Below, in pieces: positions 11,912 through 52,417 of a stretch of 64,000 bases of DNA. The position numbers and the translations under genes were made by a program. Below the pieces are notes generated by a model. That model searched no databases, was not told the DNA's origin, and saw only the letters and a program-made list of their open reading frames with translations. Location: contig NZ_JASCRR010000004.1 of NCBI RefSeq assembly GCF_030010215.1, positions 246,291 to 310,290 of the forward strand, in the 5' to 3' direction. The stretch is from Tianweitania sp. UT-5YL-CI-8. GTDB taxonomy: Bacteria; Pseudomonadota; Alphaproteobacteria; Rhizobiales; Rhizobiaceae. The stretch's first letter is position 1; each line of letters begins with the position of its first letter.

Positions 11912-11962
11912 CGATTCTCTTTGTTTGCTTCAACCGGCCTTATCATGCAGGGTCGAGCAAGG

Positions 11963-27365: not shown

Positions 27366-27465
27366 AAGCGTAGGGTCATCGAAAAAGCCCTCAGGCGGCA
27401 CAGAGCCGTTTCACTGAATCACTATGCAATCACGCTGACTTGTTTTCAAAGAAGGGACTAAATAG

Positions 27466-31690: not shown

Positions 31691-32635
31691 TCAGATGACT
31701 TCGCTGGCTTCCGCTTCCTGAACCACCTGCGCGGCCTGTGCATCGGGCCGCTCCCAGAACAGGCAAGGGGCGACGAGGATCAGTTCCGCGACGAAGTAGA
31801 GGACGCGGTTGATCGAGGCGAGCAGGATCGCGACTTCGCTGGGAATGAACGGGACCAGCGCAAAGGTGAGGATGACCTCACGGACGCCGAGGCCGGCTGG
31901 CGCGAAAGGCACCAGAAAACCCGCGACATAGGCCAGGCAGTAGACCCCCACCGCATAATACCAAGGGATCGGCGACGACGAGAACGGCGCCAGGGTGACC
32001 CAATAGGACATGCCCATCAGCACCCAGGTGAGGGCGAGGACCACGAGGGCGGGCGCCGACGGCTTTAGCTTCCAGAGCCAAGGCATGAGCCGCTTGCGGA
32101 AGACGGCGGCGACGCCGAGGATGACCACGGCGACAAGGCCGAGCAAGGCCCAGAGCCAATGCGCTTCGGAGAAGCCGACATTGTTGCTGAGTTCGAGGAA
32201 GAACATCGGCTTGGCGATGAAGATCAGCGCCACCGCCATGATGCTCGCGGTGGAGACCACCCAGGCATGCTCGGACAGGATCGCGTCGCGAATTGCGGAA
32301 ACGGCGGCGCCCCGCTTTTTGAGGATGACAACGCGCCCGACGAGTTGCCAGATCGAACCCGGCACATATTTCGCCAACTGGGTCATGTTGTAGATCCAGT
32401 AAGCTTCCTTGAACGTCAGCGGCACCCCTGCCCCAACGGCTGCGGTGCGCATGGTCATGGTCAGGCCGACCTTTGCCAGGATGATGCAGACCGTTGCCAA
32501 CACCAGCATCTCGACGCTGAGCAGCGACATCGTCTTGACGATCATCTCGCGCCGGGTGACGCAGAACCAGACGACGATCGCCAGGATGGCAAGGGTCCAT
32601 CCCCATTTGGCGATGGTCTTGAGACGGTCGATCAT
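31691..32635 (-). CDS. LPG-synthase-TM/flippase-like membrane protein
   Basis: A 314-residue inner-membrane protein with about eight membrane segments, of the lysylphosphatidylglycerol-synthase transmembrane (UPF0104) family. Recognisable blocks are MTQLAKYVPGSIWQLVGRV and the late VPFAPAGLGVREVILT. Members without a catalytic domain often sit with dolichyl-phosphate-mannose-synthase-like GT2 enzymes and are thought to move polyprenyl-linked sugars or lipids. Here it overlaps the pyruvyl transferase gene by four bases and shares an operon with such a GT2 (33945-34922). Confidence 0.8.
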   Translation of the reverse strand: MIDRLKTIAKWGWTLAILAIVVWFCVTRREMIVKTMSLLSVEMLVLATVCIILAKVGLTMTMRTAAVGAGVPLTFKEAYWIYNMTQLAKYVPGSIWQLVGRVVILKKRGAAVSAIRDAILSEHAWVVSTASIMAVALIFIAKPMFFLELSNNVGFSEAHWLWALLGLVAVVILGVAAVFRKRLMPWLWKLKPSAPALVVLALTWVLMGMSYWVTLAPFSSSPIPWYYAVGVYCLAYVAGFLVPFAPAGLGVREVILTFALVPFIPSEVAILLASINRVLYFVAELILVAPCLFWERPDAQAAQVVQEAEASEVI

Positions 32636-33903
32636 GCGCGACGTCCCTTGACGAGCTTTGCGGCATACTCGATCTGGCGCATGGACAGCGCCTGCACGGC
32701 GGGGAACGACGCCGTGATGGTTGCCTTGCGGCTGGCCTTTTCGGCGACGAGTTGTTCGATGCGGCCGACGACGACACCGATCTCGCCGCGCTTATAGTCG
32801 AGCACCATGTCCTCCTGCTGGAAGCGCTGCATGACTTCGAGGTATTTGTGGCTCCAACCGATGACCATCACCGGTGTGCCCGCCGCCAGCGCGCCGACCA
32901 TGGCATGGAAACGCGACACCGCCACGACATCCGACGCCTCGATGATCTGGTGGATCTGGGCGATGTTCAGCGAGCCGGAGAAGGAGACGCAGTATTTCCT
33001 GGTCTCGGCATCGAGGCCTTCATAGATCTCCAGCAGCAGCGGAAGGTCGTTGTTGTGGGTCTTGTCCATATCCTCGCCGCGCGTGGCATTGGGGAACAGC
33101 GCGACCGCGTAGCCCTTGGCAACCAGACCGGCCAGCAGATCGCGCATCAGCGCCGCATAATCCCAGCCCGAAGCCTTGGCGCGCAGCGCCACGACGATGC
33201 TGGGGCAAACGCCGACAATGGTGCGCCCGGCTGCCCGATGCAGATCGAGCGTGGCAAGTCCATCGAGACCGCCAGGCGCGGGCGCGCTGAGACAGAAGCT
33301 CTTCTCGAACAGGAAGGCGCAATCGTCCGCCCGCTCGTAGAAGGTCTTGTTCGGAAAAATCTCCTTCATGTGCGCTTGGGTCTTCTCGCCGCGCGTGAAG
33401 ACATGGTTGCACCACGGCAGAAAGATTTTGGCGGCGAAACGGTTGAGCGGTTCGTTGAAAGGGCCAAGCGCCTGGGCGAACTTCACCACAGGCACGCCCA
33501 GCACCATCGCCGGCAGGATGGTGGCGATGTTGAAAGGGATGAACTTGGTGCGTCCGCCGACGAAGGACACGCCGGCAAGGCAGACAAGCATGCTGGAGGC
33601 GGCGAGAGCCTGAACCGATTTAGGCAGCATGCGCTGCAGCGGCCGCAGGCGGAAGAAGCCGAGGAAGCGATAAAGCAGTGCAAACGGAAACAGCACGGCA
33701 ACCAGATAGGCCGGCGTCGACGAATACATCGACACGCGCCGGTCGGCGACAAGCTCGCGGTCGCGCTCCGGATAATAGGTGAAGACGTTGAAGGTCAGGT
33801 CCTCGCCGGCGTGGCGGCGCAACATGCCTATGGTGGTGCTCAACATCCCTTCGGCGCCGCGATTGCCATAAAAGGTCGCGGCGATGATCGACACTGACGT
33901 CAT
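32632..33903 (-). CDS. Polysaccharide pyruvyl transferase family protein
   Basis: A 423-residue protein of the PS_pyruv_trans (CsaB/ExoV/WcaK) family, which adds pyruvate ketals from phosphoenolpyruvate to glycans, or in some members has a related unproven role. Visible blocks: the N-terminal ATFYGNRGAEGMLSTTIG, VKFAQALGPFN, FTRGEKTQAHM and the C-terminal SRFHAMVGALAAGTPVMVIG. A hydrophobic stretch at residues 67-85 hints at membrane association. It lies 41 bases after the GT2 gene and overlaps the flippase-like gene by four bases, so the three probably act together. Confidence 0.83.
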   Translation of the reverse strand: MTSVSIIAATFYGNRGAEGMLSTTIGMLRRHAGEDLTFNVFTYYPERDRELVADRRVSMYSSTPAYLVAVLFPFALLYRFLGFFRLRPLQRMLPKSVQALAASSMLVCLAGVSFVGGRTKFIPFNIATILPAMVLGVPVVKFAQALGPFNEPLNRFAAKIFLPWCNHVFTRGEKTQAHMKEIFPNKTFYERADDCAFLFEKSFCLSAPAPGGLDGLATLDLHRAAGRTIVGVCPSIVVALRAKASGWDYAALMRDLLAGLVAKGYAVALFPNATRGEDMDKTHNNDLPLLLEIYEGLDAETRKYCVSFSGSLNIAQIHQIIEASDVVAVSRFHAMVGALAAGTPVMVIGWSHKYLEVMQRFQQEDMVLDYKRGEIGVVVGRIEQLVAEKASRKATITASFPAVQALSMRQIEYAAKLVKGRRA

Positions 33904-33944: not shown

Positions 33945-34922
33945 CTATTCGGCAGCCAGTTTCTCAGCGGTTGTCGGCAAAGGCGCGGCCGATATGTCCT
34001 TGCGGGTGCTGTAGCGGATTTCCTCGAGCAGCTTGCGGTTTGCCGCCAGAAGGTCGGCCACGAAAGCAATGAGGAAGGTCTGGAAGCCCATGGTCAGGAG
34101 CAGGCTGGCAAGAATGAGCGACTGGATGCGGCCTGCACCCTCGCCCATGAAGTAATAGACGAGAAATCGCAGGCCGACGAGCAGGCCGAGAACGAACAGC
34201 GTCAGGCCGATCGATGCGAAGAAGCGGAACGGCCGGTAGATGATGAAGATGCGGATGATCGTGATGACCGACCGTTGGATGTAGGACGGAATGCTCTTGA
34301 ACAGGCGCGACGGACGCAGGTCGCCGTTGACGCGGATCGGCACCGAGGTCATGGCCATGTTCTTCTGGCCGGCCTGAATGATGGTTTCCAGCGTGTAGGT
34401 GTAGTCGCTGAAGACCATCATGTGCTGGGCCGCGTTGCGCGACCAGGCGCGGAAACCGCTCGGGGCGTCGGGAATGTCGGACTTCGAGGCGACGCGCACG
34501 ACCCAACTGCCGAGCTTCTGCAGCGCCTTCTTGAGCGGCGAAAAATGCTCGATGGTGGCGATCGGGCGCGCGCCGATGACGATATCGGCCTCGCCCTTGA
34601 CGATCGGATTCGTCAGGGCCGGGATGTCGCCTGCGTTGTACTGGTTGTCGGCGTCGGTGTTGACGATGACATCGGCGCCGGCGGCTAGGCTGGCCTCAAG
34701 GCCGGTCATGAACGCCCGTGCAAGACCCTGGTTGCGGGTGTGGCGGACGATATGGTCGACGCCATTGGCCTTGGCCACGCCCACGGTATCGTCCACGCTG
34801 CCGTCGTCGATGATCAGCCATTCGACGGTATCGAAGCCCGGCACCTGACGGGGCAGTTCAGCCAGGGTGATGGCAAGCGTGCCCGCCTCGTTGTAGCAGG
34901 GGATTTGGATTATCAACTTCAT
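33945..34922 (-). CDS. GT2 glycosyltransferase, polyprenyl-phosphate sugar synthase type
   Basis: A 325-residue GT-A enzyme with a DPM1/DPG-synthase-like catalytic domain: IIQIPCYNEAGTL, WLIIDDGSVDDT, the NTDADNQY metal motif and DAPSGFRAWSR. Two membrane segments follow at about residues 235-300 (FFASIGLTLFVLGLLVGLRF and a second), as in polyprenyl-phosphate glycosyltransferases. It is the first gene of the run ending at 31691. The likely product is a lipid-linked sugar used on the periplasmic side; the sugar is unknown. Confidence 0.85.
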   Translation of the reverse strand: MKLIIQIPCYNEAGTLAITLAELPRQVPGFDTVEWLIIDDGSVDDTVGVAKANGVDHIVRHTRNQGLARAFMTGLEASLAAGADVIVNTDADNQYNAGDIPALTNPIVKGEADIVIGARPIATIEHFSPLKKALQKLGSWVVRVASKSDIPDAPSGFRAWSRNAAQHMMVFSDYTYTLETIIQAGQKNMAMTSVPIRVNGDLRPSRLFKSIPSYIQRSVITIIRIFIIYRPFRFFASIGLTLFVLGLLVGLRFLVYYFMGEGAGRIQSLILASLLLTMGFQTFLIAFVADLLAANRKLLEEIRYSTRKDISAAPLPTTAEKLAAE

Positions 34923-35145: not shown

Positions 35146-38100
35146 TCACGCCGTTCTCTCCATCGTCTGTTGCAAGATGTCCACATAGAATTTCGCATGT
35201 GTCCTGCAACTGTAGCGGTCATGTACCAGCTGGAAGGCATTAGCACTCAGCCTCTTCCGCAGCGCCTCGTCTTCGATGAGTTTCTCGACCGCCGAGAGCC
35301 ACTCCTTGGTCGTGTTTCCAACGACAAGGGAATTCTCCCCATTCACTGCGATATCGCGATAGGTTGGAACGTTCGAGACCACATTGGCGATGCGAAGTGC
35401 GCCATATTCCAGGAATTTGAGGTTGCTCTTGCTCCGATTGAACTCGTCATCGACGAGGGGCGTGATCACGATATCCCAGTCGACGACATTGAAGAGCCAT
35501 TCGACGAAGTTCGGATAGTCGTTGTTGCGCGGCAGACCGATCTTCTTGCCGAACAGCGGCGCCTGATCCTGAAACCCGCCAATGACTTCAATCTGCACCC
35601 GCGCACCGTATTTTTTCTCAATCTGCCGCATGGCATCGCGGACGATCTGCAGATCCGCCACATGCGACGGCGTGCCGATATAGCCGATCTTGATCACACC
35701 AGGGGTTTTCGGCTTCGTCGGAGCGACCTTCTCGCCAAGTTGCCAGAGCGAATAATCGATATAGTTGGGGACGACCACGACGTTGCCGTTCAGCTTCAGG
35801 AAGTTGGCTTTTAGCGGCTCGGTGGAGACCGTGACGGTATCGGCCAAGCGGACCAAGGTCGAGACCCTGGCGCTGAGCGCTTCGGCATCGCCGGCATAGC
35901 CGCGTGCCTTCATGCCTTCAGCGTTCATCAGGTCGTCATCGGCTTCGTAGATGACGCGCGTTCCCTGGGCCCGCATCCGCTTGAACCAAGCTTCAATGTC
36001 GGCGGGCGAATGATCGGGGGTGTCGCGCTGCACGATGACAACCGAGACATCCACCGCGTTGGGCAGTTTCTGCCCCTCGCCGGTCTGGACGTTCCAGACC
36101 TTGCGGACTGCCGGCTGCGTATAAGGGTAGACGAGGCGAACATAGCCGCTGCCGGTGGGATTGCCGCCTTTCTTGGCCGCAGGCACGATCAGCACACGAG
36201 GCAACTCGCCATTGTTGGTGGCCGCTCTTGTCTCAAGCGCCTCATGAAACGTAATCAACTCACTGACGGCTGCGGTATGAACGCTGAACTGTGACGCGGT
36301 GCGCAGTGCAGAGCGCTTGTGGCGGACCAAGGCGTCGGGCGTGTCGAACAGGTCGCAAACGGCCTTGAAACAGGCGTCTTCGTTCATCGTATCGACGACC
36401 AAGGCGTTCTCGCCATTCCTGGCATATTCTTCGGCTCCGCCGCGCACAGGCACCATCGGCACACAACCACAGGCCATAGCCTCAAGCCCGGTACGACCGA
36501 ACGCCTGGTAATCTGACAAATCGAGAAACACGTCCGACTGCGACAGCACCTGGGCAACCTGGGGACGCTTGATGACATCGTGGTTGATAAAAGGGAACCC
36601 GCGTTCAAGTTCAGCGAATTTCGGCTCGCCCTCGCCCGACCCGAAGATCTGGATTTCGATGCGCTCGCCATAACGCTCGGACAGGCGGCGTAAAACACGC
36701 ATCGTGCGGTCGGCACCACGGCGGGGCGTCTGCGGCCGGATCATGGCCGATACGCGCAGCTTGCCCGGATTGAGCGCGGGAGCCGGCTTGTAGACCTCAT
36801 GGTCGATGCTCGGCGCGACCTTGACGACATCGACGTCGTGCTCGCGTTTCACTTCGTTGGCAATCCAATGCGTCTTTGCGAAGTTGAGGGCTGTCGGGAT
36901 CAGTTCATAGGAAGCACGGGCGTTGCGCCAGTGCTTGGTGCCGCGGCCGAAGAACAGCGCTTCATAGTCCTGGATGTAATAGGCCGGCAGGATGTGCGGG
37001 TTGGCCTCATAAATCCTTTTTAAGAGTGGTATCGACAGGAATATCGTTGCCGCCACGACATCGTAGCGACCCGCGACGTAGTTTATTTCCTCTTCGTCGA
37101 AACCGACGAACAACTCGCGCGCCGTGGAAATGTCGGCATATTGCGAGAGGTAGTATTCGACATCCTCGCGATTGACCGCAACGGCTGCGTTCACACCGAG
37201 GCGTCGCATTTCGGTCGCTTCCTGAACGATCGAATGCACGCCGCCGCCGGCGCCCTTCACCGGCAGCAAGAACAGTACGGAGATGTCGGTAATGTCGCCC
37301 GAACCCATGCGTTCGGCTCTGCGCGCCTTCAGCGCATCCATCACGCGCTTGCGGATGGCATCCATCTCATGGGTAATCTTGACCGACTCGATCAGCGCTT
37401 CGACGCGCTCCAGCCCATGCTTGGCGCGCAAGGCCTTGGCGCCGTCCCGGCCGAGTTGCTTGCGCGTGCCATGGCCGAAGCTCTTGGACTTGGCGTGGAA
37501 GACATAGGCATCGTCAGCATAGGCAAGTTGGAAGCCGGCATCCGCGGCGCGGATGCAATAGTCGTTTTCCTCGCCATAGCCGATCGGGAAGTTGACGGGA
37601 TCCATGAAACCGATGGCATCGACCACGGCCCGCTTGATCATGTAACAGAAACCGTTGACGAAGGAGGTACGTGGATAGTCCCGCGCACTCGTCTCAGCGA
37701 CGAGCGCGGCCAATTCGTCGGCTGTCAGACCGTGCGGGATATCATTGATCGCGAACGTGCCGTCATCGGCGTAGAGCACCGGTATGTTCTGCCAGCTCGC
37801 GGCATTGGACAGCGGTCCGCAGATGCCGATGCGCTCGTCGGAACGCATGCAGCGGATCATGCCGGTGAGCCATCCATTAGTCACGACCGTGTCGCTGTTC
37901 AGCGTGATGACGAACTCGGCGGTCGAGGCCATCAGGCCGGTGTTGACCGCGTTGGTGTAACCTTTGTTGACTTCGTGTTCCTTCAGCACAAAGTCTGGAT
38001 TTTGGGCACAGAACTCGCGCAGCCACTGCGTGGTTTCGACATCCGAACCGTCATTGACCACGAAACTTCGGACCCGCAGGCCATCGTTGTGACGCTGGAT

Positions 38101-41100
38101 GGACGCCAGGCAGTCCTTGGTAAACTCCAGAGCGTTATAGACGGGAATGACGACATCGACATCGTAGTGGGCGGTATCGACGCTACGCCCATCCAGCGAA
38201 ATCACCTTCCCGGCGGCAGCCCCTGTCACGCTCGGGGCATGGGCATGATTGCGCGCCTCGATGTCGGCATAAAAGGTCGCATAATCCTCGGCCATGGCAG
38301 CGCAATCACGCGACGCACCAAGGCCCTTCTGCCAGCGGTCGACGGCACCAATGGCTTCGATCAGCATCGTCGGCGTAGTGCGGATCGAATCCAACGTCTT
38401 CAACACGGCTTCGGCCGTCATCTCGGGAACGGCCCAGCCGGCCTGGCTGTCCTTGATGCGCTCGCCAACGGCGCCGATGTCGAAGCCGATAACCGGCAGG
38501 CCGCACGACCACAATTCGGTCAGCGTGTGGCAGAAGGTTTCCGGCCAGATGGACAAGACTGCGCCGATATGCGGCTTGATCCGTCTCACCAGCATATCGA
38601 ATGCGCTGCGCTCATACGGACCGTGCAGAACGACACCATCAAGCGTGCCCTTGTTCGAGCCGGCTTGCGAAAGGCTGCCAAGGGCGGAGCCGATGATGTG
38701 AAACTCGAAGTTGTGCGCTTTTGCGAAGGCTGAAAGAGCGAAGACGATCTCCGAGCCCTTTGGACCATCGATGTTGCCCGGCATCAAAATGCGCAACGTG
38801 TCGCCGGTCCGGAAAGGTTCTGCAAAATGACCGAACTCGGCGAAGTCGCGCCCATGCGCGATGACCTCGAACGGCTTGTCGGCAAGGTGCGGATAGATGT
38901 CTACGACAATATCTTTCGCGGAGTGAACGGTGGTGATGAAGCCATCGCAATGCGACAGCATCTCGCCGAACATCGCCTTCCAATGGTCGATCCCGTCTTC
39001 GGGAAGCGCGAGAAAATCACCTCTGTCCCAAAGCTCTTTCTTGCATTCCGCATGCGCGGGACTGCACTTACCCGCATGGTACCGGTCTTCTTTGTCGAGC
39101 AATTTTACGCTTGGGCAGATCGTGTAAAAATCATGAAAAGAGAAGATGACCGGAATGTTCAGGGTCTTGGCTTCCTTCACGAGCCCAAGGCCATGCCAGG
39201 CGATATGGCGAATGTGGACAATGTCGATGGCGTATCGCACCATCCACAGTGAGACTACGTCATCATAGTCCTTGCTGAGGTGCGGAAAGGCGTGAACACG
39301 CGTCGGAAGCACATGGCGCTCAAGCTCAGTGTAGGCCCCATTTCGGTAGACGAACAGGCTGACCGCCATAGAATTGCTTCGCAACAGGAAGGTCTCATAA
39401 CGCTCGTCGATGGCGCCCATAAGGTCCTGGTTGGTCTGCGGTGTCCCGCCCGTTCTCGTCGCAAGCACATACATCGCACGGGGTTTTACGGAGTCGGCAC
39501 GGCCTTCCAGCGCCTTCAGCGTCTCGGACACCCTCTCACGGACGAGCTTCAGTGGTTCGGCGCGGACGAACTCGCGTACCTGCCGGGTATATTCAGGATA
39601 GCGCGCGTCGACGACGCTGCGCCCCTGCTGCATCAGTCCGTCTTTTTCCGAGCCGAAACTCGCCGAACGAACGTGATAAATAAAAGTCGCGTCATCGATG
39701 ATATGACGCCAGCCCTTGCGGCCGGCACGCATGCAGAAATCGTTTTCCTCGCCATAGCCGCGCGGGAACGCCGCGGCATCGAGCGTGCCGACCTCATCGA
39801 TGCAGTCGCGCCGGACATAGAGGCAGAAGCCGTTGCCGGTGGGCGCTGTCGGATAAAGCCTCAGAGAAGTCTGTGCGATGGCGCGCGCATAATCATCCAA
39901 AGCCAGATGAGCCGGCATCTCGTTGGTGCCGCTTTGCGGAACGGAAAACGCGCCCGCATTGTTGGAAATGGCCGTGACCGTTCCAGTCTTCTCCGTGGAG
40001 TAGGCTGCGAACCGCAGCTTGTCCAACCAATTGGGGGTTACAAGCGTATCGGAATTGAGGAAGACGACATCGGAACGGCCGGCAAGTTCGATGCCGCGAT
40101 TGATGGTGCCGGAAAAGCCGAGATTTGTCTCGTTGCGATGGATCTCGACCTGGTCGATCCCGCGATATTTCGCCAGCGTGGTCTGCACGCTCGCATCAGG
40201 GCTGCAGTCGTCGACGACGATCAGACGATAAGGAAGCCTGGTATTGCGGAGAATGGACTGAATACAGGCGTCGGTTTCCTCTGCCGCATTATAGACCGGG
40301 ACGATAATGGCCGGCATCTCCGTAGCTTGACGGAGACGTTCATTGACGCCGGAGAAATTGGCATAACCATCGGCTTGCGAACTGCTTCCCGTCAGCGCTC
40401 TGTCACGTAACGGCTGCCGGAAAGCGCGCCACCACACGTCGAAGTCGACGCTGGGATACGGGTCATGACCGTTTTCATATCCATGGCGAAGATAGTTGAT
40501 CAGCGGGTTGTCGTGGACCATCTCGTCGCGATAGCGCGAGAGATACCATTTGGTGTTGAAGGCAGGTCCCGGATCCCGGCCCTCGCGGGCGCCATGCCGC
40601 AGGAAATGCCGCGCGGGATCGCCGCCGCCGCGGGCAACATCAGGGTATTCTGACCGGTACCATTCCGGATCGAACAACCCCGCCTTCACGATCAATTTGT
40701 AATCGTCCAGCTTGGACAGTTTCGAAAAGGAAACCGCGATGGCGCCTTCAGCCACACCGTTCGCCGCATGGCTTTTGTGCTGAGCCGCGATATCCTTTTT
40801 CGGCTCCTGAACCGCAACGATGATGGGTTTTTCCACAGGCGGCGATCCGTTGACGTGGGCTATCTTTTGTCCTGCTTTTTCTCCCAGCAAAAGGAAATGA
40901 AAGAGAGGATTAACCCCCGTCCGCGCGACATCGGGATTGGTTTCGAGATACTGTTTGGTGTCGAATCCTCCATTGGGATTTCGCCGCAGAAGAGCGCCAA
41001 ACGTCAGGAAATGCTCCAAAGGGTCCATGCCCAATGCGACGACGTCCGGATATTGCGCCAGATACCAGTCGCGGTCAAAGAGGCCGGATGCCTCGATAAC

Positions 41101-41127
41101 GCCGCGCTCGCGATCTACATTCTTCAT
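35146..41127 (-). CDS. Giant multi-domain glycosyltransferase with five catalytic modules
   Basis: A 1993-residue protein. Residues 10-225 hold four copies of a module with consensus FDxxWYLxxYPDVxxxG-P-HFxxxGxxEGxxP. Next come a GT2 domain (about 271-470; PAIIVPVYN, FLNSDT, GYGEENDFC), a GT-B domain (about 550-955; FSFHDFYTICPSVKLLDKE), a second GT2 (about 988-1195; VVIPVYN, LNSDT, GYGEENDYC), a GT4-like domain (about 1280-1610; FGRTGLEAMACG) and a last GT-B domain (about 1645-1990; YEADDDLM, KFLEYGALRIANV). AAGG precedes the ATG at 41127; no signal peptide is visible. It would build several linkages of a repeat unit. Linkages and donors cannot be told. Confidence 0.85.
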   Translation of the reverse strand: MKNVDRERGVIEASGLFDRDWYLAQYPDVVALGMDPLEHFLTFGALLRRNPNGGFDTKQYLETNPDVARTGVNPLFHFLLLGEKAGQKIAHVNGSPPVEKPIIVAVQEPKKDIAAQHKSHAANGVAEGAIAVSFSKLSKLDDYKLIVKAGLFDPEWYRSEYPDVARGGGDPARHFLRHGAREGRDPGPAFNTKWYLSRYRDEMVHDNPLINYLRHGYENGHDPYPSVDFDVWWRAFRQPLRDRALTGSSSQADGYANFSGVNERLRQATEMPAIIVPVYNAAEETDACIQSILRNTRLPYRLIVVDDCSPDASVQTTLAKYRGIDQVEIHRNETNLGFSGTINRGIELAGRSDVVFLNSDTLVTPNWLDKLRFAAYSTEKTGTVTAISNNAGAFSVPQSGTNEMPAHLALDDYARAIAQTSLRLYPTAPTGNGFCLYVRRDCIDEVGTLDAAAFPRGYGEENDFCMRAGRKGWRHIIDDATFIYHVRSASFGSEKDGLMQQGRSVVDARYPEYTRQVREFVRAEPLKLVRERVSETLKALEGRADSVKPRAMYVLATRTGGTPQTNQDLMGAIDERYETFLLRSNSMAVSLFVYRNGAYTELERHVLPTRVHAFPHLSKDYDDVVSLWMVRYAIDIVHIRHIAWHGLGLVKEAKTLNIPVIFSFHDFYTICPSVKLLDKEDRYHAGKCSPAHAECKKELWDRGDFLALPEDGIDHWKAMFGEMLSHCDGFITTVHSAKDIVVDIYPHLADKPFEVIAHGRDFAEFGHFAEPFRTGDTLRILMPGNIDGPKGSEIVFALSAFAKAHNFEFHIIGSALGSLSQAGSNKGTLDGVVLHGPYERSAFDMLVRRIKPHIGAVLSIWPETFCHTLTELWSCGLPVIGFDIGAVGERIKDSQAGWAVPEMTAEAVLKTLDSIRTTPTMLIEAIGAVDRWQKGLGASRDCAAMAEDYATFYADIEARNHAHAPSVTGAAAGKVISLDGRSVDTAHYDVDVVIPVYNALEFTKDCLASIQRHNDGLRVRSFVVNDGSDVETTQWLREFCAQNPDFVLKEHEVNKGYTNAVNTGLMASTAEFVITLNSDTVVTNGWLTGMIRCMRSDERIGICGPLSNAASWQNIPVLYADDGTFAINDIPHGLTADELAALVAETSARDYPRTSFVNGFCYMIKRAVVDAIGFMDPVNFPIGYGEENDYCIRAADAGFQLAYADDAYVFHAKSKSFGHGTRKQLGRDGAKALRAKHGLERVEALIESVKITHEMDAIRKRVMDALKARRAERMGSGDITDISVLFLLPVKGAGGGVHSIVQEATEMRRLGVNAAVAVNREDVEYYLSQYADISTARELFVGFDEEEINYVAGRYDVVAATIFLSIPLLKRIYEANPHILPAYYIQDYEALFFGRGTKHWRNARASYELIPTALNFAKTHWIANEVKREHDVDVVKVAPSIDHEVYKPAPALNPGKLRVSAMIRPQTPRRGADRTMRVLRRLSERYGERIEIQIFGSGEGEPKFAELERGFPFINHDVIKRPQVAQVLSQSDVFLDLSDYQAFGRTGLEAMACGCVPMVPVRGGAEEYARNGENALVVDTMNEDACFKAVCDLFDTPDALVRHKRSALRTASQFSVHTAAVSELITFHEALETRAATNNGELPRVLIVPAAKKGGNPTGSGYVRLVYPYTQPAVRKVWNVQTGEGQKLPNAVDVSVVIVQRDTPDHSPADIEAWFKRMRAQGTRVIYEADDDLMNAEGMKARGYAGDAEALSARVSTLVRLADTVTVSTEPLKANFLKLNGNVVVVPNYIDYSLWQLGEKVAPTKPKTPGVIKIGYIGTPSHVADLQIVRDAMRQIEKKYGARVQIEVIGGFQDQAPLFGKKIGLPRNNDYPNFVEWLFNVVDWDIVITPLVDDEFNRSKSNLKFLEYGALRIANVVSNVPTYRDIAVNGENSLVVGNTTKEWLSAVEKLIEDEALRKRLSANAFQLVHDRYSCRTHAKFYVDILQQTMERTA

Positions 41128-41428
41128 GATACGCCTTTTGTCCCATTGCCGCGAGTATCGGTGGTATCCGCGGCCCCTCCGCACGCGCCACCGTTACCAG
41201 TCAAGATTTTCAAGCCTACATCAGAGTTCGGTGGCCTCATCCGCCTGGCGAATTCAGCTGCCTAGACAATGCCCCGGTTCCAGATCCAAAGCTTCGACAG
41301 CAGCTTCCAGGAACCGGCAAGGTCCGACGCCGCACACTCTAAAACCGCACTAGACTATACCTCAGTTTCGGCAGAGCGTTATCCGTCTGCTTCTTCATTT
41401 GCGTATACCTTGCGGCATTTCTTCCCAA
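41128..41428. other. Gap between the methyltransferase/coiled-coil gene and the giant transferase
   Basis: 301 bases with no gene. Composition is mixed, with AT-richer DNA at about 41340-41430. I see no clear terminator or promoter consensus, so whether the two genes share one transcript is open. Confidence 0.45.
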
Positions 41429-44400
41429 TTATTGTTCGCCTCTGGCTTGTGCCAGTATCGAGTTGGGCTCTCGCCCTTCTTTAGCACCGAATACCACATA
41501 GTGGAGCAGTGGATCTATCCCGGCCTGTGCAACGTCTTCATAGTGGCCTAAATACCAGTCCGCATCAAACAACCCCGACTTTCGCACCAGTTCCAACTGC
41601 CTTTTCAAACGCATCTTACCCGGCATAAACCGCCACTGTCCGCCATCAAGAAGTGATGAGACAGCATTTCCCATCTCTTTTGCTGCAACGATTTGCAAAT
41701 GTTTCAGTTTTGCGGCGCTCTGGCGTGCCTGGGCTTCCAGCCGTGCGGCATTACGGCGGCTCTCGGATTGATTATCCGAAATCATTCGCGTCAGCGTCGC
41801 AATCTCTTCGAAACGTTCCTTGAGCTTCCCCTCCAAGCGACCATTTTCTGTTGTCGCCTTCTCCTTGGCCTCGCGAAGCTCGGAAGTGATCGATCGCGTT
41901 TCCTCTATCTCGCTCTTCAGGGCATTGATCTCATCGAGTTGCGCTTGGAATTTCACCACAATGTCTTTATGGGCCGCTTCGTCAGCCGCACTTCGTTCCT
42001 GCTTGCTTCGCAGATCGGCGAAAAGAACTTCGACGTGTTCTTTCAAACCATCGGCCACTTTCCTGCTCTCGTCTTGCAATGCGGTCATCCGCTTTATTTC
42101 ATTCCGCGCCTCCGACAACTCGGCCGCAGTCTGTTCCGTTTCGAGCTGGCGTTGGGCGAGAGCGCTTTCGGTGTGCGATAGCTTGTTGCGAAGGGAGACA
42201 AGCTCCTTCGCGCCGACATCGAGACGTTGGTTTTCCGCTTCCAGCCGGGCAATTTTTTGACGCAACTCATGCGCTTCGTCCCGCATTCGACTGAACGCCT
42301 GCTCGCGGTTGGCAAGTTTAAGTTCGATTGCCTGACGCTCTTCGTCCGCGGCTTTGAGTTCGTCAGAGAGCCTATCAACAGTGACCTGCTCATGTTGCAG
42401 CAGAATTTCCAACTCACCGCGTTGCAGGTCTGCGTTCGACCGTTCCTGACGCGTCCGCACCAGTTCTTGTCTGATGGATTCGATATACTCCCTCTCCTGT
42501 AAAAGAAGCGCATCGAGTTCTCCGCGACGCCACTCGGTATCGGCATATGTCTTCCTCAGCTTGCCGATCTCATCCCGCTGTTGATCGATTTTTTCCTGGT
42601 TTTCCGCCGAGACCGCTTCAAGTTCAGCCTGAACCTTCGTCAGCTTGTCTTGAATTGCCTGCTTCTGACGATGAACCCCGATGAGTTCGTCGCTCAGCTT
42701 CGCCAGATGCGCATCCCTTCCTTCGATCAAAGACTTGGTCTGCACGAGTTCACCTGTGCACTTTTCCAGTTCGGCCGAGCGCTTCAACAACTCAGCAGCT
42801 TGGGCCGCATTGTCGCTTAGCGACTGCTGGAGTTCACCCTCGACCTTCGTGAGCTTGTCTTGGATCACCTTTCTCAAACGACGAACCTCTTGATGCTCGT
42901 CGTTCAGCTTGGACAGGCTGGCATCCCGCTCTTCAAGAGCCGACTTGGCCTGCTCGAGTTCGGCGCTGCGCTTTTCGAGTTCGCTCGACAGCTTTGACAA
43001 CTCAATGGATTGCGCCGAATTGTCGCTTCGAGATTTCTGGAGTTCACCCTCGACCTTCGTGAGCTTGTCTTGGATCACCTTTCTCAAACGACGAACTTCT
43101 TGATGCTCGTCGTTCAGCTTGGATAGGCTGGCATCCCGCTCTTCAAGAGCCAACTTGGCCTGCTCCAGTTCGGCGCTGCGCTCTTCCAACTCGCGTAGAC
43201 GTTCGGTAAGCTCGGCGGATTGGGTGGCAAAGTTGCGCTGCGACGCCAGCAACTCACCCTCGACCTTTGTCAGCTTGTCCTGGATAGCCGTCTTCCGACG
43301 CCGAACCTCTTGATACTCATCGTTCAGCTTGGACAGATCCGTGTTTTTTTCGTTTAGAGAAGATTTGCTCTGCGCAAGCTCAGCAGCCTGCGCAACTAAA
43401 TCGCTCCTAGACGTTGCCAGTTCGGCTTCGACCTCCTTGAGCTTTTCCCTAAGTTCCGTCTTCAGACGGGAGATTCCTTTATACTCCTCGTTTAATCTAG
43501 ACAGGCGTTCGTCACGCTCCAACACCTCATCGCGCGCACTTTGCAACTCCGCTTCGCGCAGTCGCCCTTCATTCAGCCGCTCCAAGCGTTCAGCCTTATA
43601 CTGAGTTTCGGCCGCCGCTGCCTTGCGCAGTTCCGCCTCTACTTTGTTCAATTGTTCTTGGAGGACAGCATTTTGCCTGTGCGCTTCATGATGCTCCTCG
43701 GCCAGTTTCGCCAGGCGGGCATCGCGCTGATCGAGCGCAAGCTTGACTTCTTCAAGCTCTACAGAGCCGGCGGTCCGCACCACTTCAAGCTCAGCCTCCA
43801 GCGCCGCAAACCGATCTTGAGCGGCCGTCTTCTTTTGCAGGTTGGCCTGGTGTTCGTCGTTCAACAGTTGAAGCGATGTATCTTTTTCCTGAAGCGCGAA
43901 GTTCAACTCGTTGATCTGGTGCGCGCGATCGCCGATTAAAACTTGAAGTTCAGCGACCTCGTCTTGGGCAGCGGCTTTGTTCTTCCGCTCAGACGCAATT
44001 TCTTCCTCTAGATCTTTCAGAGTTTCATCGCGCTGCGCGATCTCTTTTTTCAACTCATCCAGTCTTTTGTCTGCCTGTTCCGCCTCAAAAGCGTCAGCGC
44101 AGGATCGGCCGAGGCGTACAAAAATATCGCGGACCATTCGCCGGTCGATGTCGTTGGCACCGACGGTGAAGAGTTCTTTCAAACGTGCGGACTGGTTTGT
44201 ACCAACACCAAGCACACCCAGCCCATGACCGTGAACGAATTCGAAACTCGGATACTTTGTCCGCAATTGCTCAAAAAGACGGAAAACGCCGAACTCTTTT
44301 TCGCGAACATTCGTATCGTGCATCATCACGACAGCGCGTTTGGAAAGCTTCGGCAACCATGCCTCAAAGTCGTGCTCGACCGCCTCGAAGGTATGCAAGC

Positions 44401-44860
44401 CATCAATGTGGAGAAGATCGATCGTTCCGTCGGAAAAGTGCCTGAGCGCGTCGTCGAAAGTGCCCTTCACCAATCGCGAAAACCCGGAATAATACTTGTC
44501 ATTGTGAGTGCGGACCTGATCGAATATCTCCTCGCCATAGAAGCCCGCGTGGTCGTCGCCTTTCCAGGTGTCCACAGCAAAACAGCGCGCATCGATCTCG
44601 AGACGCTCGACCGCCTGGCACATCGAAAAATAAGACACGCCCGTGTGAACGCCTAATTCCACGATGACGTCGGGTTGAAGTGCCTCAACCATCCAGAATG
44701 CGAATGGCACATGCTCTTGCCAAGCCGAGCGAGCCATATAGCGCGGTCGCATGAATGCTATGCGCGACATGACATTCGCGAGCACCATATCGTACTCGCG
44801 GGAAACAACCGGCTTGTCCTGATGTCCGCGGGGGGTATTCGGTGAGGATCTCGTTGCCAT
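41429..44860 (-). CDS. Methyltransferase / long coiled coil / DWYL-module protein
   Basis: A 1143-residue protein in three parts. Residues 1 to about 250 are a class I SAM-dependent methyltransferase (Methyltransf_24 or CmcI-like) with VELGVHTGVS at 67-76, VDTWKGDD, HIDGLHTFEA at 151-160 and MMHDTN. Residues about 265-1055 are a nearly unbroken predicted coiled coil, rich in Glu, Lys, Leu and Ala and containing tandem repeats. The C-terminus (about 1089-1134) is one module, SGLFDADWYLGHYEDV then GIDPLLHYVVFGAKEGREP, of the type that opens the neighbouring giant transferase. The ATG at 44860 has a weak ribosome site. A chain-terminating, length-setting role is inferred from this layout. Confidence 0.83.
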   Translation of the reverse strand: MATRSSPNTPRGHQDKPVVSREYDMVLANVMSRIAFMRPRYMARSAWQEHVPFAFWMVEALQPDVIVELGVHTGVSYFSMCQAVERLEIDARCFAVDTWKGDDHAGFYGEEIFDQVRTHNDKYYSGFSRLVKGTFDDALRHFSDGTIDLLHIDGLHTFEAVEHDFEAWLPKLSKRAVVMMHDTNVREKEFGVFRLFEQLRTKYPSFEFVHGHGLGVLGVGTNQSARLKELFTVGANDIDRRMVRDIFVRLGRSCADAFEAEQADKRLDELKKEIAQRDETLKDLEEEIASERKNKAAAQDEVAELQVLIGDRAHQINELNFALQEKDTSLQLLNDEHQANLQKKTAAQDRFAALEAELEVVRTAGSVELEEVKLALDQRDARLAKLAEEHHEAHRQNAVLQEQLNKVEAELRKAAAAETQYKAERLERLNEGRLREAELQSARDEVLERDERLSRLNEEYKGISRLKTELREKLKEVEAELATSRSDLVAQAAELAQSKSSLNEKNTDLSKLNDEYQEVRRRKTAIQDKLTKVEGELLASQRNFATQSAELTERLRELEERSAELEQAKLALEERDASLSKLNDEHQEVRRLRKVIQDKLTKVEGELQKSRSDNSAQSIELSKLSSELEKRSAELEQAKSALEERDASLSKLNDEHQEVRRLRKVIQDKLTKVEGELQQSLSDNAAQAAELLKRSAELEKCTGELVQTKSLIEGRDAHLAKLSDELIGVHRQKQAIQDKLTKVQAELEAVSAENQEKIDQQRDEIGKLRKTYADTEWRRGELDALLLQEREYIESIRQELVRTRQERSNADLQRGELEILLQHEQVTVDRLSDELKAADEERQAIELKLANREQAFSRMRDEAHELRQKIARLEAENQRLDVGAKELVSLRNKLSHTESALAQRQLETEQTAAELSEARNEIKRMTALQDESRKVADGLKEHVEVLFADLRSKQERSAADEAAHKDIVVKFQAQLDEINALKSEIEETRSITSELREAKEKATTENGRLEGKLKERFEEIATLTRMISDNQSESRRNAARLEAQARQSAAKLKHLQIVAAKEMGNAVSSLLDGGQWRFMPGKMRLKRQLELVRKSGLFDADWYLGHYEDVAQAGIDPLLHYVVFGAKEGREPNSILAQARGEQ
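42656..43663 (-). repeat. Tandem 210/168/210/210/210-bp coiled-coil repeats
   Basis: Five consecutive units within the coiled-coil gene, starting (minus strand) at 43663, 43453, 43285, 43075 and 42865 and ending at 42656. They encode 70, 56, 70, 70 and 70 residues, all whole multiples of seven. A typical unit starts IQDKLTKVEGEL and ends SLSKLNDEHQEVRR. The copies at 42841-42960 and 43051-43170 differ at only a few bases, so at least one duplication is recent. Diverged relatives extend on both sides (AQDRFAALEAEL at 43822 and IQDKLTKVQAEL at 42655). Confidence 0.9.
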
Positions 44861-45138: not shown

Positions 45139-46470
45139 TCAACGCAGCAGTTGCGGTGGCCAAACGGCCTTTTCCGAGTTGATGAGCGAAAACCCTCCGT
45201 CTGGTGAGGTAATCATCAACGTTGGCGGAGAGCTTCTATCATACTCCAACCGGTCAAGTGGGATACAGATCAAAAGACCGCTGTTTACGGTTTTTCCGGG
45301 AAAACGCCGCGCGACGTCATGACGCGGATACCGCTCAATCGAGTAGCCTTGAATATTACGGCCCGCCAGTTCGATCGCGAAAGAGTTCTGGCTCTCCCCT
45401 GCTAGATTGACAGCCCAGCCGCGAAGTTTGAGTACACCGTTTTCGACCGAAATGCTTTCGATACGTCCTTTTCCTTTTTCCCTACTGGAAGTAGGGGAGA
45501 TCGGCGTCAGATTTGCAATCGCTTCGTCCAGGTAAACAAGTTTCTCATCGCACCCTGCTTCCCGCAGAGCCTGCCTCAGCCGGTCCATCTCTTGTCGTGT
45601 GGCCTCTACCAACCAAGTCGCGGCGGGATCATGAACATCGTTACGATCGTAATTCGCAAAAAAATTCTGATCTCGCATTTCCGGTCTGCTTGCCCGACCG
45701 CGGGGACGCTTCTTGTTATCAAACTCTGCTTTTGACTTTACTACATAGTGGTTGAGACGTAACGGCGCCCATACTGTTTTGTGGCTCAGTCCTTCACCCC
45801 GTAACTTGTGATCGACCAAGGGGGATTTGTCAGCATGGACATAATGAAAACCGCGCTTCAAACGGAATTTATGTGGTGTGCCACCGACTTTTGCGACCGC
45901 ATTGGTACGTAGAATGGTTTTATAATGATTGTTCGTCAGCAGGTCTTCCTTCGAGCGCTGCACGAAACGTTCGACAACAAGGCCCTTGGACGGCACATTC
46001 CGGTGTGACGACCCATATGCCGCCCAGTTGACTGCAACCGCGCCTACGTTCTCAGCCATGGTGTCTAACAGAGCGCCGATCTTTTCATCTTTTTGATCGG
46101 GAATAAAAAATTCATCGAGATCGATAAAGGCAAGCCAATCTGCAGAAGCGCCATAGCGACGCAGTATCTCTGCGTAGGCAGGCAGTTGCGGCGGACGCTT
46201 GGCTTTGTTTTTGAACACAAAGAAATCGATGATTCCAAGATTGGAAAGTTCTGCAAGAAGTTCTTGGGCGCCATCGTCGCTGCCGTTGTCAGCTAGAAAA
46301 AAATGTTCGGCGCCCAAAACTCGATGCAAAGCAATCCACTCGAGAATATAGGGACCCTCATTCTTCATGATTGCAGCAACTGCAAACTTAACCCGCTTAC
46401 GTACAGGCCTTTCCTGGACCCGAAAGATCTCTCGCCCTTTGGAGACTAGATTTTTAATCGGGATGGCCAT
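45139..46470 (-). CDS. Glycosyltransferase family 2/92-like with C-terminal beta domain
   Basis: A 443-residue protein. Residues 25 to about 300 are a Glyco_tranf_2_4/GT92-type domain: AAIMKNEGPYILEWIALHR, DNGSDDGAQELL, the DxD-like FIDLDEFFIP, then KTILRTNAV and LRLNHYVVKSKAEF. The last 100 residues form a separate beta-rich domain with LKLRGWAVNLAGES, a type often attached to glycosyltransferases and possibly glycan-binding. Its ATG overlaps the stop of the upstream GT2 gene by one base (TAATG), so it ends the rhamnose operon. The sugar transferred is unknown. Confidence 0.82.
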   Translation of the reverse strand: MAIPIKNLVSKGREIFRVQERPVRKRVKFAVAAIMKNEGPYILEWIALHRVLGAEHFFLADNGSDDGAQELLAELSNLGIIDFFVFKNKAKRPPQLPAYAEILRRYGASADWLAFIDLDEFFIPDQKDEKIGALLDTMAENVGAVAVNWAAYGSSHRNVPSKGLVVERFVQRSKEDLLTNNHYKTILRTNAVAKVGGTPHKFRLKRGFHYVHADKSPLVDHKLRGEGLSHKTVWAPLRLNHYVVKSKAEFDNKKRPRGRASRPEMRDQNFFANYDRNDVHDPAATWLVEATRQEMDRLRQALREAGCDEKLVYLDEAIANLTPISPTSSREKGKGRIESISVENGVLKLRGWAVNLAGESQNSFAIELAGRNIQGYSIERYPRHDVARRFPGKTVNSGLLICIPLDRLEYDRSSPPTLMITSPDGGFSLINSEKAVWPPQLLR

Positions 46471-48872
46471 TACTGAGCGCTTTGTCCCATTGGGGTCGTT
46501 AGAAGCTTTCTCACCGCCGACAACGAAAAGTCCTCGCGGTCGAGTGTCAAGTTTGGTGAATAGTATGGGTCATTCAGCGACCATCGGCCAAGCATATAAT
46601 CGGCTTCCGCATTGAACCGGTCTTGTTTTTCGGCATTGTCTTCCGCACCCCGGCTTTCGCTTTCCAGGTGGTACAACTCGGCAAAAGGCGTCCAGATGTT
46701 GAGATACCCCGCTTCTCTCACCTTCAGGCAGAAATCGACATCGTTGAAGGCAATGGCGAGGTTGGCTTCCTCCAGCCCGCCGACCTGCTCATAGATCGCC
46801 TTACGGACGACGAGGCAGGCGCCGGTCACCGCCGAAAGGTTCTGCACCATGCGAAGGCGGGAAAAATAGCCCTCGTGGTAGCGCGGAAAGGATTTGTGCG
46901 AATGGCCCGCGACACCGCCGATGCCGAGGATCACCCCCGCATGCTGGATCGTGTCGTTGGCGTAATAGAGCTTCGCCCCCACACAACCGATATCGGGCTG
47001 TTGCGCCCACGACACCATTTCGGTCAACCAATCCGGTGAAATGACTTCTATGTCGTTGTTGACGAGAGCGACGATGGAACCTTTCGCTTGCGAGACGGCC
47101 GAATTGTTGATTGCGGAAAAGTTGAACGCGCCCCGATGAGGAAGCACATGAACTTTAGGATCTGAGACGGCCGCGGCCAAATAGGCCTTTGTTTCCGGCT
47201 CCACGGAATCGTTATCGACGATCAGAATTTCATACTGGGAATAGGTCGTCTTCTGGCGGATCGAGTCCACGCAGTTCCGCAGCAATTCCCACCGATCCCG
47301 TGTCGGGATGATGATGCTGACCAGCGGCTGAGGCTCTGAGACAGCATGCAATATCCGATACACGACCCCGGAAACCGCTTCTACTTTCGCATCGGTTTTC
47401 GTCCGGGCAAGATGTTCTTCCAACGCGCGCTTGCCGGCGTCATGCGCATAGCTTTTCTCGTAACCATCAAGTGCCGTCGACCCTTCCAGGGCGCGCCAAT
47501 GGTAGAGGATTTTGGGGATGTGGTGGATGTTTGCAGGATCGACGCGCTCGAAGATGCGGAGGTTGACGTCGAAATCCTGGCTGCCCTCGAAGCCTGGACG
47601 CCAAGCACCTACAGCCCGAAGCGTCTCTGTGCGATAGACGGTTAGATGGTTGAAGTAGTTCTGCGACCGCAGCATCTCGCGGGAGAAGTCGGGCTTGAAA
47701 TAGGGCTCATAGCGCAGGCCATTGCCGGCTATCTTGTCCTCGTCGGAATAGATGATTTCGGCATCCGGATGCTGCCCGACGAACAAGGCCACCTCAGCAA
47801 GCGCGGTGGGCGCCAACAGATCGTCATGGTCCAGCAATGCCGTCCATTCGCCCGACGCAAGCGCCAGCGCGGAGTTGCTGGCTTTGGCAATGCGACCATT
47901 CTCTTTTCGGAGAACCAGCTTGATGCGCGGTTCGCCTGCCGCCAATTCCACTAAGATCGGCTGCACATGCGGCATGCTCGAGCAGTCGTCGGCGATGCAG
48001 AGTTCCCAATTCTCGTAGGCCTGGGCGATCACACTGGCTACCGCAGCGCGCAACACGTCTTCCGGCGTGTTGTAGACCGGCATGACGACGGAGATCAGTG
48101 GCCTGCTCGCCAGTCCCGCCAGACGGCGCTTCATCAGTTCCTGTTCGGCAGGGCCAAACGTGTCGTGGCGTTCGATCCAGCGCTGATAGTCGACCGCAGC
48201 GGAATGCCCTGCTTGATCCGCCCTGCGCAGATCTGCGGCAAGCTTGCGCAATCCCCCATGTCGCATGGTTCTCATCACCAGCAAAAGGCTGCTCGCGATC
48301 GGCTGATTGCGGCTCTGGCGTGCAGCCAAAGCCCCGAGCGCCAGCCGCATATAGTATTCCGGCCGCGTCAGCCTGCGCAGACGCACCGACCGGTAGGAGA
48401 AAACCGCATCCTTGCTGCCAGGATCGAGCAGCACACGTCGCGCGCCGGAGGTCAACAACAGGTTTACAGCAGCTGTCGTTTTACTGAAGACGGACGGGCG
48501 AAGTGCCGAAGTGCCTGAACTGCGAAGCCCCGTATCGACCCAGGCGGAAGGTGCAGCACGATCACTCAATCCTCTCAGCCCGTGCAGCTTAAGGCGATAA
48601 TGCCCGGACCGCAGCCAGGATCGCTCAGTCCACGACACTTCGAGATAAGCATCGTCATCGACAACGCGCCAGGAGCGCGCGTCCTGACCGACCGGTTCAA
48701 GCCCGGCCACCGGCTTGAGCACGCATGTGTAGCCGACATAACGCCGCAGATGCGACACAAGGCGAGTCAGAGCCGACCGCTGCGGTGTTGCAGCGGACGT
48801 CGCCCGGTCACCCGGCTGCGGCCTGTTCGGTTCGAGAGGTTTTATCTGCGCATCCGGTGGGAAGGTCATCAT
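46470..48872 (-). CDS. Double GT2 glycosyltransferase with N-terminal beta domain
   Basis: About 800 residues. The first 240 form a beta-rich domain and a helical linker; then come two GT2 domains, at about 262-470 (ISVVMPVYNTPED, LLDHDDLL, YSDEDKI) and about 519-760 (VSIIIPTRDRWELL, LVNNDIEVIS, NDVDFCLKV). Paired GT2 enzymes of this kind build alternating linkages in rhamnose-containing O-chains. Start choice is open: ATG 48872 or 48869 follow AAGGGG, while TTG 48926 would overlap the rfbD stop by four bases, in the style of the other overlaps in this operon. Confidence 0.85.
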   Translation of the reverse strand: MMTFPPDAQIKPLEPNRPQPGDRATSAATPQRSALTRLVSHLRRYVGYTCVLKPVAGLEPVGQDARSWRVVDDDAYLEVSWTERSWLRSGHYRLKLHGLRGLSDRAAPSAWVDTGLRSSGTSALRPSVFSKTTAAVNLLLTSGARRVLLDPGSKDAVFSYRSVRLRRLTRPEYYMRLALGALAARQSRNQPIASSLLLVMRTMRHGGLRKLAADLRRADQAGHSAAVDYQRWIERHDTFGPAEQELMKRRLAGLASRPLISVVMPVYNTPEDVLRAAVASVIAQAYENWELCIADDCSSMPHVQPILVELAAGEPRIKLVLRKENGRIAKASNSALALASGEWTALLDHDDLLAPTALAEVALFVGQHPDAEIIYSDEDKIAGNGLRYEPYFKPDFSREMLRSQNYFNHLTVYRTETLRAVGAWRPGFEGSQDFDVNLRIFERVDPANIHHIPKILYHWRALEGSTALDGYEKSYAHDAGKRALEEHLARTKTDAKVEAVSGVVYRILHAVSEPQPLVSIIIPTRDRWELLRNCVDSIRQKTTYSQYEILIVDNDSVEPETKAYLAAAVSDPKVHVLPHRGAFNFSAINNSAVSQAKGSIVALVNNDIEVISPDWLTEMVSWAQQPDIGCVGAKLYYANDTIQHAGVILGIGGVAGHSHKSFPRYHEGYFSRLRMVQNLSAVTGACLVVRKAIYEQVGGLEEANLAIAFNDVDFCLKVREAGYLNIWTPFAELYHLESESRGAEDNAEKQDRFNAEADYMLGRWSLNDPYYSPNLTLDREDFSLSAVRKLLTTPMGQSAQ

Positions 48873-48922
48873 CTTCCCCTTGGAGTTTCTAACATCACCT
48901 GCCTCGACAGGTGCAGGTCTCT

Positions 48923-49813
48923 TCAAGCTGAGGCCCTCACCAGGCGCTCGACAACCTCGTCCGAAGACATCCGCCAGTCGGGAGCGCGCCAGCCATAGAC
49001 ATCGAACAATTTGTCGGTTGAAAGGCAGGAATTGGCCGGCCGCTGCGCCTTGGTCGGGTAATCAGACGTCGCGATGTCGCGAACATCTGCCGTCGGGCCA
49101 CCCAACCGGCCGCTGGTTTCCAGAACGTGGCGGGCAAATCCGCTCCAGTTTGTTTTTCCGGTTCCAACGAGATGGAAGACGCCAAATCCGTCAGTCCCTT
49201 CCGTCAACCGGTTCGAGGTGGCGATGTGAAGGACGGCGTCGGCGATGTCCAAGGCGGAGGTCGGGTTACCCCACTGGTCGCCGACCACCGTGAGTTCGTC
49301 TCGGTCCGCCGCCAGACGCAGCATGGTCTTGACGAAGTTCTTGCCGAACGGGCTGTAGACCCAGGCCGTGCGCAGAATGACATGGCGGGGGTTGGCTTCG
49401 GCAACGGCTTTCTCGCCTTCGAGCTTAGTGCGGCCATAGACGCCGACCGGGCCTGTAGGGTCATTTTCGAGATACTCGCCGTCCTTGTTGCCGGCAAAGA
49501 CATAATCGGTGGACAGATGGATGATGGGGATACCCGCCTTGGCAGCGGCGCGTGCGACGGCGCCTGCCCCTTCGGCATTCACCGCATGGGCAAGGTCGCG
49601 CTCATCTTCGGCAAGGTCAACGGCGGTATAGGCGGCGGCCGATACGACGATGTCGGGACTGACGTCAGCGATAACCCTTTCGACGCTCGCCGGGTCGGCA
49701 AGGTCGAATTCCGGACGGCCGGCTGTGACCAGCTCGACGCCATCGCGTGCCGCCGCACGCTCGTTCAGGCTGGTAACGACCTGCCCTTCACGGCCGGTGA
49801 CCAGGATTTTCAT
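48923..49813 (-). CDS. rfbD: dTDP-4-dehydrorhamnose reductase
   Basis: A 296-residue short-chain dehydrogenase that reduces dTDP-4-keto-L-rhamnose to dTDP-L-rhamnose, the last step of the pathway. Visible: LVTGREGQV at the N-terminus, STDYVFAG at 101-108, catalytic VYGRTK with Tyr126 and Lys130, and the C-terminal [12 protein letters not shown] block typical of RmlD. It overlaps rfbB by four bases (ATGA) and is followed by the double GT2, placing dTDP-rhamnose supply and use in one transcript. Confidence 0.93.
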
Positions 49814-50877: not shown

Positions 50878-50895
50878 GTGCATCCGTCCTTGCGA

Positions 50896-51450: not shown

Positions 51451-51462
51451 GAAAATTCCTAT

Positions 51463-52338: not shown

Positions 52339-52417
52339 TCGCAACCTCGCATTACGCATCCGAGCTCGGGAGCAAAGAGATGCGGATTCAGTCTCGATAA
52401 ATATGCCGACTATCGGC

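Follow-up and report, generated by a model that had tools for sequence, protein, structure and literature searches.

In a 64,000-nucleotide stretch of the 5.2 Mb genome of Tianweitania sp. UT-5YL-CI-8 (contig NZ_JASCRR010000004.1, positions 246,291 to 310,290 of the forward strand; hereafter the window), two adjacent minus-strand genes encode a methyltransferase-coil-module protein (41429-44860) and a multi-domain glycosyltransferase (GT; 35146-41127). We propose, with moderate confidence, that the former is a WbdD-like chain terminator and ruler, and that it acts together with its polymerase or polymerases on a rhamnose-containing surface polysaccharide exported by a nearby Wzm/Wzt transporter, the length of the coil setting the modal chain length. 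A preliminary description of this DNA had drawn the parallel to WbdD and WbdA, and the gene layout that it gave is confirmed: the adjacent pair is recovered from open reading frames (ORFs) and Pfam matches, the methyltransferase is joined to about 790 residues of predicted coil, the second protein has two GT2 and three GT-group-1 stretches (GT2-GT4-GT2-GT4-GT4), and the Wzm/Wzt genes, placed about 8 kb off, lie on the opposite strand, 7.8 kb from the gene of this five-GT protein and 14 kb from the coil gene. The parallel itself gains from a shared module, conserved adjacency, single-chain homologs, head swaps and a whole-heptad length difference, and it has to be amended for a Wzt without a cap-reading domain, a rival partner in a tandem-GT2 protein and degenerate heads in two lineages. 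The coil protein measures 1143 aa from the ATG at 44860 or 1144 aa from a TTG at 44863, and the five-GT protein 1993 aa from the ATG at 41127 or 2012 aa from a GTG (35146-41184).

The head of the coil protein, residues 68-184 (44312-44662, minus strand), is a Methyltransf_24 domain (PF13578; E 4.7e-27, 95.4 bits against a curated cut-off of 26.3), and no kinase domain is matched in the protein by Pfam. When the whole chain is compared with solved folds, the top match is MeT1 (6g80/6g7d; E 1.4e-8), whose alignments to the head have 17-20% identity, with Rv0187 and other O-methyltransferases close behind. A single-sequence phmmer search of solved chains with the head gave only 6g7d at E 0.1 or better, a sensitivity at which remote homology to WbdD might be missed. 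MeT1 is not known to have a coil. PMC9883506 describes this mycobacterial enzyme as a methylmannose-polysaccharide 1-O-methyltransferase that acts on sugar chains. MeT1 blocks the 1-OH of its substrate. Behind the head lies the predicted helical coil (41648-44152, minus strand). Residues 256-1050 are free of proline, and their 28-residue hydrophobic moment at period 3.5 averages 0.179, while 300 shuffles average 0.110 and reach 0.144 at most and a stretch taken from the GT protein scores 0.130; this coil score is home-made and not a published coil predictor. An AlphaFold2 model based on a 13-row alignment (mean pLDDT 68.1) places helices at residues 237-361, 372-600, 650-880 and 885-1071, amounting to 772 residues, with pLDDT mostly 80-96 in the head, mostly 50-80 in the helices, 31-41 around residues 600-630 and about 80-88 in the C-terminal module. 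The gap at 600-650 falls inside a tandem repeat. This single-chain model predicts helices and does not establish one continuous coiled coil. The span of 120 nm suggested earlier is an upper bound, 772 helical residues at 0.15 nm each giving about 115 nm if fully extended. In this protein, then, an extended predicted coil bears the modifying enzyme at its distal end.

The coil harbors a tandem array of 210-bp units (42732-43336, minus strand), each encoding 70 residues or exactly ten heptads, and has a self-repeat score of 90.6, whereas none of 40 heptad-preserving shuffles scores above 7.4. The corresponding protein of a sister species has one repeat copy fewer, and these 70 residues are the sole indel past the first 40 alignment columns of the two proteins. 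The coil sequence diverges faster than that of the head or tail, with identities of 551/725 (76%) in the coil, 213/241 (88%) in the head and 88/99 (89%) in the tail. Across the coil proteins with a scored repeat, the best offset is divisible by seven in nine of ten, the exception being that of the related locus L103. Such divisibility is a weak sign of selection and was set aside as one, because 20 of the 40 heptad-preserving shuffles give the same.

Near the C-terminal end of the coil is an RFxEIATLT motif (41786-41815, minus strand), common to many coil proteins with differing heads, and the protein ends in a single 36-residue module of the LFDxxWYLxxYPDVxxxGxDPLxHYxxxGxxEGRxP type (41465-41572, minus strand). 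The coil had been described as ending in a docking module different from that of WbdD; the same module, which had gone unnoticed, occurs four times at the N-terminus of the five-GT protein (40459-41082, minus strand), and its sharing by the two proteins suggests that it may indeed dock. No Pfam or NCBIfam family covers the module stretch, and when solved chains were searched with a profile, the two hits returned were at chance level (E 0.36 and 0.77). In an AlphaFold2 model (mean pLDDT 70.3, pTM 0.43), the modules are all-helical at a pLDDT of about 80-94 and are connected by linkers below 50. Fold searches gave no PDB match at E 0.001 (two matches, both at E 9.8), no match with a Z of 2 among nine re-aligned chains and none at E 0.001 or better among 23 BFVD matches, an absence that is not proof of a new fold.

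We searched 101 relatives and genome samples of the family (394), order (397) and class (385), which overlap in part, together with a species-level collection that contributed three loci. The family search matched 81 genomes, of which 31 had regions inspected, so that coil genomes number at least 19 in the family sample, and for the order and class searches a strict cut was used and 20 regions were inspected. Including the window, 23 inspected loci from 19 genera (given by L numbers) encode a coil-type protein ending in the module. The coil was scored by the home-made measure in 20 of these and judged by reading the sequences in L119, L125 and L133; the count covers neither L060 and L061 (Methyltransf_24, modules, no coil), L064 (coil, no module) and L120 (FkbM head, five modules, little coil) nor the single-chain forms described below. 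A module-bearing ORF lies directly downstream or overlaps on the same strand within 239 bp in 16 of the 23 loci, and 15 of these ORFs are glycosyltransferases by Pfam or homology, the sixteenth (L050) being a 182-aa ORF. The nearest module ORF is in another orientation in L110, L119 and L125 and is 1.6 to 9.6 kb downstream in L048, L101 and L097, while the fetched stretch of L104 has no partner module ORF.

The heads of these proteins are of several kinds, on spacers of about 150 to 840 residues. Five are Methyltransf_24 domains (window, L035, L102, L108, L119) and 12 are sulfotransferase-like (L046, L047, L050, L096, L099, L100, L101, L106, L110, L111, L125, L133); the remaining six comprise a degenerate sulfotransferase (L048), a degenerate methyltransferase (L103), a heparinase-like head (L104), no head (L112), an unassigned head (L097) and one cut by a contig end (L098). 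Most of the sulfotransferase-like heads were assigned from aligned stretches that we take to be of sulfotransferase type (GMHRSGTS, KDPR and RNPLEV); Pfam gives sub-threshold sulfotransferase matches for L100 and L111 and one that narrowly passes the cut-off for the fused L052, and eight other scanned sulfotransferase-like members have none. L106 and L110 keep the gene order of the window (rmlACBD, the 818-aa tandem GT2 protein, GT92, coil gene), including the opposite-strand genes for Wzm, Wzt and UDP-glucose dehydrogenase, but have a sulfotransferase-like head. A literature search, outside the 2019 chain-termination survey (Glycobiology 29:822), showed no sulfotransferase-headed terminators among the papers listed, and we do not claim that these are unreported. 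In L048, a separate Sulfotransfer_3 gene (10994-12259) is located between the gene of the coil protein with the degenerate sulfotransferase head and that of the module-bearing GT, and sulfotransferase activity may there act in trans. In L104 (9371-11896), a heparinase II/III-like enzyme shares its chain with a short coil and, at the C-terminus, this same module. On another contig (C12) of the window's own genome, L064 (8820-10310) encodes a second Methyltransf_24-type coil protein, with 50% identity over residues 31-303, which ends after an RFTELAALT motif without the module; six of eight scanned neighboring ORFs have no Pfam match.

In five single-chain homologs, the module sits between the head and coil and the GT: L116 and L052 are sulfotransferase-coil-module-GT2-GT2 chains, L137 is methyltransferase-coil-module-GT2-GT4, L109 FkbM-coil-module-GT2 and L037 Methyltransf_24-coil-module-GT4. 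Their part order is that of the single-chain terminator-coil-polymerase proteins WbbB of Klebsiella pneumoniae O12 and ORF6 of O7, as presented in PMC11231755, from which they differ in the helical module joining coil and GT, in sulfotransferase-like or other methyltransferase heads, and in their short coils (where scored, 29 residues in L109, 52 in L037 and 127 in L052 before the modules). The shared module, the adjacency and the fusions fit a C-terminal region that would recruit the polymerase.

Two multi-GT proteins are encoded beside the putative terminator in the same gene run. The second, a tandem GT2 protein of 818 aa (46470-48926, minus strand), is homologous to the GT part of the single-chain sulfotransferase proteins, with 58% identity over 600 aligned positions in L052 and 49% over 586 in L116. 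In L096 and L099, the gene immediately after the sulfotransferase-coil gene encodes a homolog of the five-GT protein (47% identity). Since tandem-GT2 homologs are fused to coils and five-GT homologs come after coil genes, both are candidate partners, and the tandem-GT2 protein may elongate the chain by itself or as one of two partners. A ruler and terminator docked to the tandem-GT2 protein, with the five-GT protein adding other segments, is compatible with our proposal and is a less likely possibility. Besides the fusions, the place of its gene in the same run, kept in the syntenic loci, speaks for this arrangement; against it, no module was detected in the window copy as compared with four in the five-GT protein, whose homologs take the position after the coil gene in L096 and L099.

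For the terminator and ruler that we propose, the most likely mechanism is chain termination by O-methylation of a chain that has reached the head. The RFxEIATLT motif, the linker and the module, which make up the foot of the coil, would lie near the membrane with the module-bearing GT or GTs, probably through module-module contact, and the coil would keep the methyltransferase head at a distance of up to about 115 nm. Only a lipid-linked growing chain whose length brings it to the head would be O-methylated, at what we infer to be its non-reducing end, and elongation would then halt. In this way the modal chain length would be set by the length of the coil and would shift as ten-heptad units are gained or lost.

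As described in PMC3482155, PMC5082667 and PMC11231755, the WbdD/WbdA systems of Escherichia coli O9a and O8 (K. pneumoniae O3 and O5) combine an N-terminal capping enzyme, a long coil, C-terminal polymerase recruitment and ABC export. The window, judged by its sequence, is alike in having a putative capping enzyme, a coil, a candidate dock, a separate multi-domain polymerase and an ABC exporter nearby. It differs in that the module is common to both partners, the Wzt is without a cap-reading domain, and the predicted coil is several times longer than the approximately 20 nm reported for WbdD. The earlier remark that a kinase is lacking holds for the coil protein but not as a difference from every WbdD, since the O8 WbdD is given as a simple methyltransferase in PMC3482155; the Methyltransf_24 head without a kinase is in this respect like that of O8. 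A protein of E. coli O101/O162 with one methyltransferase domain and a C-terminal coil, proposed as a ruler in PMC13168486, is similar by description. The terminator/ruler type is already known; new here are the shared dock, the swappable cap chemistry and, probably, the lack of cap-gated export.

The exporter is encoded on the plus strand (25846-28800) by a Wzm-type permease (25846-26637) and a Wzt-type ATPase of 242 aa (26637-27365), followed by a UDP-glucose dehydrogenase (27466-28800) whose gene adjoins the exporter in L046, L106 and L110 as well. Pfam finds no Wzt_C, the C-terminal cap-reading domain, in this ATPase, and the cap-reading exporter that accompanies WbdD-type terminators is thus not seen. 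PMC11231755, a paper of 2024, states such a domain for all its terminated O-antigen examples and gives the coil as a characteristic marker of the strategy. Beyond the aligned ATPase end there are 0-21 residues in 14 of 16 compared ATPases (a set without the sister's Wzt), as against 222 in L060 and 209 in L061; Wzt_C is found by Pfam in the latter two and not in the coil-locus ATPases of L046, L099 and L106. Cap-gated export in the manner of E. coli is unlikely here. In L060 (15441-18168) and L061 (8198-11027), Methyltransf_24 proteins with modules and without a coil are encoded directly beside the Wzt_C-bearing ATPases, and from these two cases the coil and the cap-reading domain may be alternatives.

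The permease belongs to a clade that we delimited by a gap between E 1.3e-69 and 1.3e-42 in the match list, a cut chosen after viewing the list. It is present in 36 of the 394 family-sample genomes, namely 11 of the 19 coil genomes and 25 of the 375 others (Fisher p 3.6e-8, uncorrected for shared ancestry in a sample holding the same-genus sets G000/G001, G344/G245/G383 and G130/G361), and lies on the same contig within 15 kb of the coil gene in 7 of the 19. A constant association of this exporter with a coil-module gene was considered and rejected, as 20 further exporter regions hold no coil protein ending in the module. Among these regions are the single-chain form of L137, a headless module-GT protein (L138) and head-coil-GT chains in which the module was undetected (L146, L147).

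Several observations weigh against the proposed terminator and ruler. The model confidence of the coil is no more than 50-80, and lower at residues 600-630. The ranking of Rv0187 and COMT-like O-methyltransferases near MeT1 means that the MeT1 match does not fix the substrate of the head. Coil and module are retained in L048 and L103, in two lineages, despite degenerate heads, L112 is headless and the head of L104 is heparinase-like. Several of the 23 loci have a short coil by the score (30 residues in L101, 45 in L104, 60 in L097), and coil length has no significant relation to partner size (Spearman 0.36, p 0.19, n 15). Linkage to the exporter is not seen in 4 of the 11 genomes having both, the genes being about 724 kb apart on one contig in G145 and on other contigs in G035, G383 and G247, and no coil-module gene was among those recognized in 25 of the 36 exporter-clade genomes. 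As the window Wzt is without a cap-reading domain, capping would not be required for export by the known route.

The module is also found in a calcium-binding-repeat (RTX) protein (L061, 3656-6046) and is hence not a dedicated GT dock. This occurrence, and that in the coil-less Methyltransf_24 proteins beside Wzt_C exporters in L060 and L061, would be accounted for if the module bound glycan or envelope instead of its own kind; the two window proteins would then both carry it on account of a common substrate. We regard this as a tentative possibility, itself compatible with a ruler: the place of the module between coil and GT in the fusions, and at the facing ends of adjacent genes, fits docking without excluding glycan binding. 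That the coil is a mere scaffold, gathering module-bearing GTs at the membrane while the head methylates within the growing chain or on lipid-linked intermediates and coil length matters little, would suit the degenerate or absent heads (L048, L103, L112), the spacers, about 150-250 residues long in 12 of the 21 members measured with hand-set head ends, and the exporter without a cap-reading domain, but appears improbable given the recognizable methyltransferase or sulfotransferase-like heads kept in 17 of the 23 loci, the separate sulfotransferase gene of L048 and a very long proline-free coil that differs from its sister's by exactly ten heptads and no other indel despite faster sequence divergence.

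Coiled-coil rulers have been established in enterobacterial O-antigens with cap-reading exporters. The loci described here offer natural experiments, with the same foot under different caps, spacers of about 150 to 840 residues and a sister pair one repeat unit apart, by which the ruler idea, and capping for length rather than for export, become directly testable. They also point to sulfated chain ends and, for glycan engineering, to a docking part that could be ported. A more speculative extension is that these loci belong to a widespread alphaproteobacterial class of glycan machines, in which the exporter would not read caps and the coil alone would determine length, a common foot and helical module would attach to many different polymerases, methylation and sulfation caps would be exchanged, and length would change in whole-heptad steps as tandem repeats are gained or lost.

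The polysaccharide locus of the window is a minus-strand gene run from 52359 down to 31691, in the order rmlA, rmlC, rmlB, rmlD, tandem GT2, GT92-like, methyltransferase-coil, five-GT, GT2, pyruvyl transferase family and membrane protein. The four rml genes (48923-52359), upstream in the run, would supply dTDP-rhamnose. The GT92/GT2-like glycosyltransferase (45139-46470) has the same position in L106 and L110, the syntenic loci with sulfotransferase-coil genes, and downstream of the five-GT gene are those of a GT2 glycosyltransferase (33945-34922) and a polysaccharide pyruvyl transferase family protein (32632-33903). A Wzy_C/O-antigen ligase family protein is encoded at 10523-11911, about 14 kb from the exporter, and would fit a lipopolysaccharide O-antigen. 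Between the exporter and the polysaccharide genes, the stretch at 30908-31555 matches the C-terminal domain of the type VI secretion system immunity protein Tdi1.

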